Source: a virus. Taken from it: 36,602 bases of DNA. A model generated the notes under the pieces. It worked only from the letters and a program-made list of their open reading frames with translations, was not told the origin of the DNA and did no database searches. The stretch lies in the IMG/VR virus record IMGVR_UViG_3300041926_000014, positions 1 through 36,602 of that record. One strand, written 5' to 3'. Below are positions 1 through 28,100 of this stretch, one piece after another; position 1 is the first letter of the stretch; every line of letters starts with the position of its first letter. Made by a program: the position numbers and the translations under genes.

Positions 1-530
1 TCTATAACGCCATGTTGCAATGGCAACTTTTTTAGAGCAGCTATCTTGTCTTGATCTTCCTTATTCGAAGAAACAGCAACAACCGCTTGTTGTTGTTCTT
101 TTATTACTGTCTCTTCATTCTTTACTGTACTTCTTTTATTACTAGTGGCCGGTTCAGCCGTATCCGGTAGATCCGTTTCCGGTTCAGCCGCTTCCGGTGA
201 ACCCGTTAGCGGAGAAATTATTTTAAATTCATATATAACATACTCGAACTTAGAGAATTGTCCTTTTTTATCTTGTGATTGTCCTTTCTTTTCGCAATAT
301 CCTTGTTCAATAAGTTCATCAAGAAGAGAATATATCGCATCCCTTCCACCTCCTTTTCCTATGAAGATCTTGGAAAGATGAGCAACTGAAACCTGCCAAT
401 CGTCTTTTTTGCTAATGAGATAAGACCAAAGCCCCTTAGCTGCCCAAGATAATTTCCTATCAGAAAGAGGAGTTTTATTGAGCATCACATAAGGGTTTTC
501 TTTATTATGATCCGTACGTATGATACTCAT
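1..530 (-). CDS. Phage replication protein, N-terminal part (cut by window edge)
   Basis: An open frame starts at the ATG at 530 and runs off the left edge after 176 codons with no stop. Residues about 15-100 read like the winged-helix N-terminal domain of phage replication initiator/replisome-organiser proteins: a 'LSDRKLSWAAKGLWSYLISK' stretch, then 'WQVSVAHLSKIF', and a second helix 'AIYSLLDELIEQGY' with basic residues following. After residue 110 comes a disordered P/E/T/S linker encoded by imperfect 'ccggttcagccg' repeats (about 147-210), then a Q-rich stretch. The likely role is origin binding or helicase loading, but the C-terminal domain is not in the window. The start lies one base past the stop of the GIY-YIG gene, so the two are co-transcribed, with GAGAAGTG as the nearest ribosome-binding site. 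The HTH nature is fairly sure; the exact replication role is inferred. Confidence 0.72.
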   Translation of the reverse strand, partial: MSIIRTDHNKENPYVMLNKTPLSDRKLSWAAKGLWSYLISKKDDWQVSVAHLSKIFIGKGGGRDAIYSLLDELIEQGYCEKKGQSQDKKGQFSKFEYVIYEFKIISPLTGSPEAAEPETDLPDTAEPATSNKRSTVKNEETVIKEQQQAVVAVSSNKEDQDKIAALKKLPLQHGVI

Positions 531-531
531 T

Positions 532-993
532 TTACACTTCTCCTTTCTCAATAATTGGAATGATTTGTTTAAGATCTTCTATTAAATAATATCCATTAAT
601 ATGCTTTATATTTAGTTTCCTTACCGCTCTCTTGACCTTATGCATTTTTCCCTTAAGACATGGATGAGATCTTTGAAACCATTCGAGATAAGTGTATTTT
701 TTGTTTGAGGGAATATTGTAGTTTAGAAATGGCTTATGCATAATTATAGCTTCTGCTTCCGCCTCATTTGAAATCTCAGAAGGCACGATAAAATATTTAA
801 CCTTAACAAATTTCTTAGATTGTTGATGAGCGGATATCCTAGAAAAAAGACAAGTTGTCTGTCCGATATATATTATTTCATCGTCCTCATTGATGAGAAA
901 ATATATAAAAGATTTTTTGTGTTCATTTTGCAAAAGATCGAGATCGTAAATCTTAACTGTTGCGAAGGTATATTCTGAGGCTATTTCTGCCAT
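532..993 (-). CDS. GIY-YIG family nuclease-like protein
   Basis: A 153-aa protein with the GIY-YIG signature: 'FIYFLIN' at residues 29-35 and 'IIYIGQT' at 40-46 supply the two tyrosines (Y31, Y42). R52 and H56 follow on the helix, an acidic pair E79/E81 sits in 'NEAEAEAI', and an Asn in 'FLNYN' (91-93) ends the domain. All catalytic-type positions of the family seem present. The remaining 60 residues are basic ('KGKMHKVKRAVRK') and could bind DNA. Many phage GIY-YIG proteins are homing endonucleases, but this one sits neatly inside an operon and may be a recombination or repair nuclease. The start has a strong AGGAG at 998-1002, only four bases from the ATG, and this site is part of the three-copy 9-mer described separately. 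The next gene starts two bases downstream of its stop. Confidence 0.78.
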   Translation of the reverse strand: MAEIASEYTFATVKIYDLDLLQNEHKKSFIYFLINEDDEIIYIGQTTCLFSRISAHQQSKKFVKVKYFIVPSEISNEAEAEAIIMHKPFLNYNIPSNKKYTYLEWFQRSHPCLKGKMHKVKRAVRKLNIKHINGYYLIEDLKQIIPIIEKGEV

Positions 994-997
994 AATT

Positions 998-1097
998 CTC
1001 CTATCAAATAATTATTTTTGTTTGCCGTAAATTAATTAACTTGATAGGATTTAGACACATACTTCCTGTCTAGGTGTACGTACTATATCCTATCAAG
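998..1097 (-). promoter_or_regulatory. Candidate RNA switch (or triple operator) in the GIY-YIG gene leader
   Basis: The 9-mer TCCTATCAA occurs at 999-1007 and 1088-1096 and in reverse at 1041-1049. On the minus-strand transcript, segment 1 (1097-1087) can pair with segment 2 (1050-1040) as a perfect 11-bp stem. Segment 2 can instead pair over 9 bp with segment 3 (1007-999), which contains the AGGAG ribosome-binding site of the GIY-YIG gene. The two pairings exclude each other. The loop between segments 1 and 2 holds a 6-bp hairpin (TAGACA 1052-1057 with TGTCTA 1067-1072) and an 8-bp palindrome GTACGTAC (1076-1083). The repeats are seen directly; the switching is inferred. A protein-bound DNA operator with three half-sites is the main alternative. 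Confidence 0.45.
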
Positions 1098-1100
1098 ATA

Positions 1101-1124
1101 ACCCGCATTACGAGTGCGGGTTTT
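1101..1124. terminator. Intrinsic-terminator-like hairpin
   Basis: ACCCGCA (1101-1107) pairs with TGCGGGT (1115-1121) around a 7-base loop and is followed on the plus strand by TTTT. On the minus strand the downstream sequence is TTATCTT, so it could also weaken leftward transcription between the 72-aa gene and the GIY-YIG gene. Because the flanking genes read leftward, it may act as an attenuator in front of the repeat-containing leader. Confidence 0.5.
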
Positions 1125-1166
1125 CTGCTTCTATAAGTCTCCAATTTTTAAGCATTCTCTTAAATC

Positions 1167-1385
1167 TCATATGCATAGCCCATGTTTTTCCATAAATTTA
1201 TCTAGCCATTCCTGGGCTTCTTTCGCTGAATCGAATTTTGTTATTATATGTTGTGGTGCTCCCCCATCAAAATCATCATATAATATTTTCACTGAAAATT
1301 CATGCCCGTATTGATTAACCATAAATGAATGAATCTTATCCAAATTTACATATGCGCCGTCTTGGCATGGAATAAATTTAGTCAT
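1167..1385 (-). CDS. Conserved-looking 72-aa protein of unknown function
   Basis: I do not recognise the family. The protein looks like one small alpha/beta domain: an N-terminal beta region containing 'FIPCQDGAYVNLDKI', a central acidic 'YDDFDGG' turn, and a C-terminal amphipathic helix 'SAKEAQEWLDKFMEKHG'. There is no signal peptide or membrane segment. The start codon overlaps the stop of the upstream gene by 8 bases, which supports translational coupling and expression. It is the last gene before the hairpin and the repeat-rich leader of the GIY-YIG gene. Confidence 0.6.
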   Translation of the reverse strand: MTKFIPCQDGAYVNLDKIHSFMVNQYGHEFSVKILYDDFDGGAPQHIITKFDSAKEAQEWLDKFMEKHGLCI

Positions 1386-27019: not shown

Positions 27020-27988
27020 CTATGAAGGCATAAAGGTTGTTACATTCAGTCCACTAATCCAGTTTTGATTAGTGATTGCCCTAGCGATGGCAAATTTCGC
27101 GTATAGCTGTGAGTTTTGCGCTACGGACGAAACAACCCATGGAGGACGATAGCCTATAACGGCTGTATATTGGTTTTGTTCTATTTTTGCGGCAGCTTCC
27201 AATCCATACATAGGAATTGTATAAACTGTATTTCCCTTTGTTGATACTCCAGGTGTTCTAGCTGCTTTGGATGAGGTGAAAAACCTAAATCGTGAAATAG
27301 AACAATATTCTTCTGGCCTTAGACCTTCTTGTGCGGGATAATTTACTTTTAAAGTAACACCTTGCACTTTTTGAAGGTCACTTGTAATATTAGTCGAACA
27401 AAGAGCTATAAATGCATCTCTGGTCGGTGATGTTGAAAATTTATTCATAGCATCTATGCTAGTCAACATTGTTCTAGCATCATTACCAAGCAAGATTTGT
27501 TCGATGTTATTTACATCATTCAGAGAGATATTAGAAGGCTGATCTCCATTACTTCCGCCTGTGGCATTAAGATAGCTAACTGAAGAGCTGAAAAGATCTC
27601 TCATCAATAGATCTTCTTTTTCTCTCAACCATTGTCCCAGCAATGCAGTGAACTTTGTTAAGGTTTTGGAATTCTCCCATAATACGACCTGCTCGTTGGT
27701 TACCATGCTTTTTGCATATATTTCCATTGTTGCATCGATATCGGTACGAACTGGAACTTCTGAAGCAGGATCAATACCAGAGCCGTCCAATTGACCGCCA
27801 TCCGTAGAAAGCTTTTCAAAACGGCTCATACGTGTGGTTTTACCGATATATGCTTCTGCATGGTGTAAATCCACTCCAAAAGAGTGAATTAAATTAAACA
27901 TTGGCGTGGACAATAAATCCTCGGAAGCCTGCACTGGCAATTCCGGAGCCATGTTATTGATGTTTGTTATGCCTGAAGGAAATGACAT
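27020..27988 (-). CDS. Major capsid protein, N4-gp56 family
   Basis: 322 aa. The sequence follows the N4-gp56 capsid family: 'LPVQASEDLLSTPMFNLIHS' N-terminal helix, 'KTTRMSRFEKLS', 'WENSKTLTKFTALLGQWLRE' spine helix (residues about 105-124), 'NISLNDVNNIEQILLGNDAR' at about 150, 'RDAFIALCSTNITSDLQKV' near 195, 'RFRFFTSSKAARTPG' near 237, and a C-terminal 'IGYRPPWVVSSVAQNSQLYA'. It forms the HK97-like icosahedral shell on the scaffold encoded upstream. GAGGTAATAAA precedes the ATG. The gene has its own strong promoter and structured leader. Confidence 0.88.
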   Translation of the reverse strand: MSFPSGITNINNMAPELPVQASEDLLSTPMFNLIHSFGVDLHHAEAYIGKTTRMSRFEKLSTDGGQLDGSGIDPASEVPVRTDIDATMEIYAKSMVTNEQVVLWENSKTLTKFTALLGQWLREKEDLLMRDLFSSSVSYLNATGGSNGDQPSNISLNDVNNIEQILLGNDARTMLTSIDAMNKFSTSPTRDAFIALCSTNITSDLQKVQGVTLKVNYPAQEGLRPEEYCSISRFRFFTSSKAARTPGVSTKGNTVYTIPMYGLEAAAKIEQNQYTAVIGYRPPWVVSSVAQNSQLYAKFAIARAITNQNWISGLNVTTFMPS

Positions 27989-28018
27989 TTTATTACCTCG
28001 ACGATGGGTTAATACGTC

Positions 28019-28100
28019 CTAGTGGCGAACTAGTAAATATCTGCCCACGCTGGCGAGGCGTGTAATCAGCCGGAGTTAGCGAAGCTCAAGATCAGCTGAT
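28019..28100 (-). promoter_or_regulatory. Three-hairpin 5' leader of the capsid mRNA
   Basis: Reading leftward from the predicted transcript start: ATCAGC (28100-28095) pairs with GCTGAT (28070-28065), enclosing a small AGC-GAA-GCT-type hairpin; CACGC (28062-28058) pairs with GCGTG (28050-28046) around CTCGCCA; and CTAGT (28033-28029) pairs with ACTAG (28023-28019) around TCGCC. The last two loops share TCGCC. The region is clearly more GC-rich than its surroundings. It may stabilise the mRNA, bind a virion protein, or control translation. Confidence 0.5.

Follow-up and report, generated by a model that had tools for sequence, protein, structure and literature searches.

What is the role of three copies of one 9-mer placed in alternating orientation around the Shine-Dalgarno (SD) box of a phage gene? 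The window, that is, the whole stretch of 36,602 nucleotides analysed here, contains TCCTATCAA twice on the plus strand (copies 1 and 3) and once as the reverse complement (copy 2), at exactly the positions given by an earlier sequence-only reading (Table 1). No other exact copies occur in these 36.6 kb. The expected mean count is 0.48, and none of 100 dinucleotide shuffles reaches three. In the leftward transcript the order is copy 1, a structured loop, copy 2, an AT-rich spacer and copy 3. Judging from the sequence comparisons described below, the 9-mers probably serve as arms of a translational attenuator that is controlled by an antisense RNA and located in the leader of a phage replication-initiator operon.

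Table 1. Positions of the leader elements and of the adjacent genes in the window
Feature	Position	Strand	Comment
Leader	994..1166	-	Follows the small gene 1385-1167 and precedes the GIY-YIG and initiator genes; located likewise in L044, L005 and L006
Copy 1 (candidate pre-emptor arm)	1088..1096	-	TTGATAGGA on the leftward RNA; partner copy 2; putative antisense target
Copy 2	1041..1049	-	TCCTATCAA on the leftward RNA; partners copy 1 or the SD copy
Copy 3 (SD copy)	999..1007	-	TTGATAGGA; holds most of the SD box of the GIY-YIG gene; AGGAG at 1002-998
GIY-YIG / T5orf172 protein	532..993	-	First gene after the leader; absent from the matching position in L044
DnaD/O-like replication initiator	3..530	-	Truncated at the edge of the window; start codon 1 nt past the stop of GIY-YIG
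Small gene upstream of the leader	1167..1385	-	Conserved in L044
Tandem repeats inside the initiator gene	149..208	-	Candidate origin iterons, unlike the 9-mers
Intrinsic terminator	1100..1126	+	Hairpin A stem 1100-1122, then TTTTCT; would end the antisense RNA; compensatory changes in L044
Predicted antisense promoter	1022..1050	+	-35 TTGCCG at 1022-1027, 17 nt, extended -10 TGATAGGAT (hexamer 1045-1050)
Putative antisense RNA, about 70 nt	1057..1126	+	Spans the loop, copy 1 and hairpin A, not copy 2; deduced from the terminator, the promoter and the masking fold

The leftward strand can form two mutually exclusive stems. One, of 11 bp, joins copy 1 to copy 2 and closes the structured loop (hairpin B), and in this state the SD copy is free, as the sequence-only reading had proposed. 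Its second proposal, pairing of copy 2 with copy 3 over the AGGAG, also agrees with the folding: this stem has 11 contiguous pairs, including G-U, and 16 once the spacer joins. The two stems had been described as comparable in strength, and indeed, the free fold of the leader, with copy 1 paired to copy 2, has the energy of -40.1 kcal/mol versus -37.4 kcal/mol when the copy 2:SD stem is forced, a gap of 2.7 kcal/mol. If copy 1 is removed, the SD stem with 16 pairs is formed. A strict three-copy test applied to 2113 SD sites of the window and its relatives retained this site alone. Downstream of the copy 2:SD stem there is GAATTATGG with no T-run, and no minus-strand terminator was found after the SD-containing stem.

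The element was originally described as belonging to the GIY-YIG gene. This does not hold in the related phage L044, where the element is present, the GIY-YIG gene is absent, and the initiator follows directly. Thus the element is a part of the replication-initiator leader rather than of the GIY-YIG gene, and the latter is apparently an insertion that separated the leader from the initiator and took over the leader. The initiator protein of the window has matches in DnaD-like and initiator families of phages, and a Cro/YdaS-like regulator is encoded among the genes upstream. The initiator genes of L005, L006 and L044 contain tandem repeats at intervals of about 22 bp, which are candidate origin iterons; because of this location, origin repeats are not an obvious role for the 9-mers. 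A promoter-like site with 10 of 12 matches (TTGATG-16-TATAAT) is located at 1243-1270 on the minus strand, inside the gene 1385-1167. It does not score above shuffles; a transcript of the leader alone, directed to the initiator, could begin here.

Relatives of the phage were collected via TerL, yielding 80 contigs of uncultivated phages from soil and other metagenomes. In the collections searched, the window's version of the sequence has one true orthologue, L044. Exact-pattern scans of IMG/VR (hairpin A with the start of hairpin B; copy 2 with the SD box) produced L044 as the sole true relative, the remaining matches being unrelated terminators or coding sequence, and searches with the GIY-YIG protein and with the small upstream protein and its alignment gave nothing useful beyond L044. 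The element of L044 is 73% identical to that of the window, contains a 15-nt identical SD block and lies immediately before the initiator gene. The sequence-only reading had suggested comparing related leaders for paired substitutions in both stems. L044 keeps both stems; hairpin B has tolerated changes and a bulge, and two compensatory pairs are seen in the terminator hairpin A. Copy 1 of L044 is degenerate as a DNA site, yet it still pairs, with a bulge.

About ten relatives have the element in the same place with almost wholly changed sequence but retained layout, which consists of an opposite-strand terminator, a hairpin, a spacer rich in AT and an SD box repeating the first arm of the hairpin. 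In L005 the copies are TTGATAAGA, with an 18-nt exact repeat between the hairpin arm and the SD region, and there are extra TTCGATAA copies upstream. The same three-part relation is realised by other sequences in L073, L046/L023 and L075, and in a shorter version in L006. L163, retrieved later by a different query, has the same layout with AAAGGATAGA; the layout of L165 is similar but weaker. The family leaders L012, L035, L049 and L039 have no clear SD copy. Upstream of position 2055 in L023 and of position 3010 in L165, copy 1 is multiplied to three direct repeats before the hairpin (GGGCTAGACAC and AAGGAC-type units); perhaps these are extra antisense or decoy targets. No bacterial genome was matched via TerL. 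Matches to the capsid protein (MCP) in genome collections are limited to L160 and L161, two short contigs from MAGs assigned to Bacteroidetes and Nitrospiraceae, and these assignments may be binning errors.

Hairpin A is strong and forms on the minus strand too, and it is an intrinsic terminator on the plus strand only. Leftward genes adjoin the leader, and in the window annotation the next rightward genes begin beyond 2500. No annotated rightward gene needs this terminator, and therefore a short rightward transcript is called for. The candidate promoter TTGCCG-17-TAGGAT scores above all 40 of 40 shuffles with the model of E. coli sigma-70, which may not be that of the host. Its -10 box sits on copy 2, the start being predicted near 1057, and thus the putative antisense RNA does not include copy 2. 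The sequence-only reading had overlooked hairpin A, this predicted promoter and the identity of the second leftward gene as an initiator. With the same E. coli model, the matching promoter positions are top-scoring in L044, L006, L073 and L131 as well, the L044 promoter being weak. The predicted start is 66-69 nt from the start codon in the window, L044, L006, L131 and L073. When the part of the leader covered by the predicted antisense RNA is masked, SD pairing in the predicted fold increases from 45-50% to 80% in both the window and L044. A similar rise is observed in L006, L131, L005, L023 and L150, and no rise in L012, L049 and L039.

The likely trigger of the switch is this candidate antisense RNA from the opposite strand. 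By default, copy 1 would act as a pre-emptor by pairing with copy 2 (hairpin B), leaving the SD copy free. The antisense RNA would run from its predicted start through the complement of copy 1 to the terminator. By binding the leader it would occupy copy 1 and the loop, copy 2 would be released and pair with the SD box, and translation of the first gene would stop. In the relatives this gene is the replication initiator; here it is the GIY-YIG gene coupled to the initiator. More genome copies would produce more antisense RNA, and initiator synthesis would be limited. The antisense RNA itself would carry TCCTATCAA and could block the SD box directly. It is possible, although we propose this more tentatively, that the phage family as a whole limits its initiator by a plasmid-style antisense attenuator at the position of lambda oop, the repeats being rewritten together and each phage having an incompatibility-like RNA specificity.

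The generic energy of SD complementarity is not unusual in the initiator leaders compared to all genes. As it failed to separate the initiator leaders, the 3' arm of the hairpin was then required in the score. With this hairpin-arm-to-SD score, 16 initiator leaders are stronger than 1394 other leaders (p = 2.4e-6), some control leaders also showing strong SD complementarity. Since SD boxes and anti-SD sequences share general composition, the next step was a swap test with controls, in which SD boxes and hairpin arms were exchanged among 16 leaders, whether or not a copy was visible in them. The leaders' own SD/arm pairs beat the swapped ones (p = 5e-5, and 1e-4 without near-duplicates; z = -5.1), whereas 120 sets of control leaders have mean z of -0.8 and minimum of -3.8.

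Antisense terminators precede 16 of the 18 initiators in the discovery set, which was partly found by eye, and 9 of 18 held-out initiators, versus 111 of 1498 other genes. For promoter-plus-terminator cassettes, defined with the E. coli sigma-70 promoter model, the respective counts are 8/18, 5/18 and 13/1498. When only intergenic leaders are considered, cassettes are found before 5 of 9 held-out initiators versus 6 of 417 other leaders (p = 5e-7). On the other hand, held-out initiators of other phages show no enrichment of the SD switch (1/16, p = 0.29). Hence the antisense cassette is general, whereas the SD switch looks specific to this phage family. The survey suggests that oop-like RNAs are common among phages. 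Antisense promoter-plus-terminator cassettes before O/DnaD-type initiators are also seen outside the family in L137, L143, L150, L152 and L153.

This difference between cassette and switch would be natural if the cassette functioned without any SD switch. Expression of the initiator would then be limited by the antisense RNA, with RNase III cleaving the duplex, or by its promoter interfering with transcription, and the SD copy would be a by-product. Lambda pO/oop, in the same position, acts by cleavage of the cII mRNA and by interfering with pR (PMC3349717, PMC3985674, PMC5869508). However, the cis match between the SD box and the hairpin arm across sequence-divergent leaders would be unexpected, and we consider this explanation unlikely. 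It is even harder to interpret the 9-mers as DNA sites, either repressor half-sites or initiator-protein iterons, one of which overlaps the SD box by chance. Repeats in both orientations and the additional upstream TTCGATAA copies in L005 are consistent with such sites, but the spacing of the inverted copies varies between phages from a few to about 90 nt, unlike an operator, and in L044 the pairing is kept where the DNA site is degenerate. Moreover, the candidate origin iterons have another sequence and lie inside the initiator genes, and there are no more exact copies of the 9-mer in the window, the vicinity of the regulator gene included. These observations make DNA sites quite improbable.

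Nearly as improbable as the DNA sites, or slightly more so, is an RNA switch that acts purely in cis and responds to temperature, a metabolite or a protein. The sequence-only reading had taken the exclusive stems for an RNA switch over a ribosome-binding site, possibly a thermosensor or a riboswitch. Conservation of the layout in sequence-divergent relatives argues for the switch, and the alternative stems within 2.7 kcal/mol suit a cis-acting device, but the suggested triggers do not fare well. The predicted probability of the copy 2:SD stem is 0.0015 at 15 C and 0.023 at 45 C, remaining below 3% throughout, and since the predicted population hardly shifts in this range, heat sensing is unlikely. 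A metabolite riboswitch is unlikely too, as the leader has no Rfam match at the gathering threshold and no aptamer-like sequence is conserved across the phage family. Besides, the rightward terminator would be left unexplained. Finally, these could be ordinary processing or terminator hairpins with a chance repeat at the SD box; chance repeats do occur in AT-rich DNA, and some controls have strong SD complementarity. However, with three exact copies in none of the 100 shuffles, the family-wide cis match, and the same layout in the later found L163, we regard this as very improbable.

For plasmids, the control of initiator leaders by antisense RNA is textbook knowledge. In the staphylococcal RepA_N plasmid pSK41, an antisense RNA of about 83 nt, RNAI, is counter-transcribed to the rep leader, and its binding was proposed to induce a stem hiding the ribosome-binding site, thus acting on translation; the origin is inside rep, and the antisense target is reported to lie about 100 nt before the start of translation (PMC5703833). 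Similarly, the SD box in the leader of the window can be hidden in a stem, the 5' arm of which has a pre-emptor as its alternative partner. Unlike pSK41, the operon belongs to a phage and encodes a DnaD/O-like initiator, the RNA is predicted, the candidate -10 box is on copy 2, and a GIY-YIG gene is apparently inserted. In the pT181 RNAI and pIP501 RNAIII systems the SD-containing stem has a competitor in the pre-emptor arm, which is in turn occupied by the antisense RNA (PMC5703833). The attenuator proposed here would follow the same pre-emptor logic in the translational form proposed for pSK41, whereas the stems of pT181 and pIP501 are mainly transcription terminators and the copy 2:SD stem lacks a T-run.

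To our knowledge, lambda OOP is the only well-studied phage antisense RNA at the initiator-leader position, and its role in replication is still debated. In lambda, the pO-oop-tO unit encodes a short antisense RNA with its own terminator just ahead of the O-type initiator. The window has a terminator and an O-type initiator together with a predicted promoter, and would produce such an RNA with the same position and polarity. Candidate iterons inside the initiator gene and regulator genes further upstream are also as in lambda. However, about 52 nt of OOP overlap the 3' end of cII, whereas here there is no overlap with the upstream gene: the terminator ends at about 1126 and the gene at 1167, so that the putative RNA stops about 40 nt short. 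As this overlap is a defining feature of OOP, the putative RNA is not classed as OOP. Its likely target, the SD box of the downstream gene, is another difference. P22 sar and P1/P7 c4 are also small phage antisense RNAs controlling translation of phage genes (PMC12197685), as is predicted for the window, but they control antirepressor genes, and the element considered here would control replication. No description of OOP-like elements of this kind was found in a literature search whose coverage did not extend to subscription journals.

If the proposed mechanism is true, a family-wide covarying antisense/SD attenuator would link plasmid copy control with lambda OOP, and OOP-type RNAs might be widespread copy-control devices. 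It would also provide a model, open to direct testing, for the timing or limitation of replication initiation by a phage. Through the repeats that determine specificity, relatives infecting the same cell could come to compete at the RNA level.

Another structure was observed at 27986-28075 on the minus strand, before the major capsid gene (27988-27020). This is a long hairpin with the SD box of the capsid gene in the 3' arm (GCCTCG / CGAGGT), possibly a conserved structured leader. There are no Rfam matches in the window, the capsid leader included. A stem blocking the capsid SD box is also present in about half of 35 relatives, and its flanks change together: GCCTCGCTAG/CTAGCGAGGC, GCCTCTCTAA/TTAGAGAGGT, GCCTCGTTAA/TTGACGAGGC.
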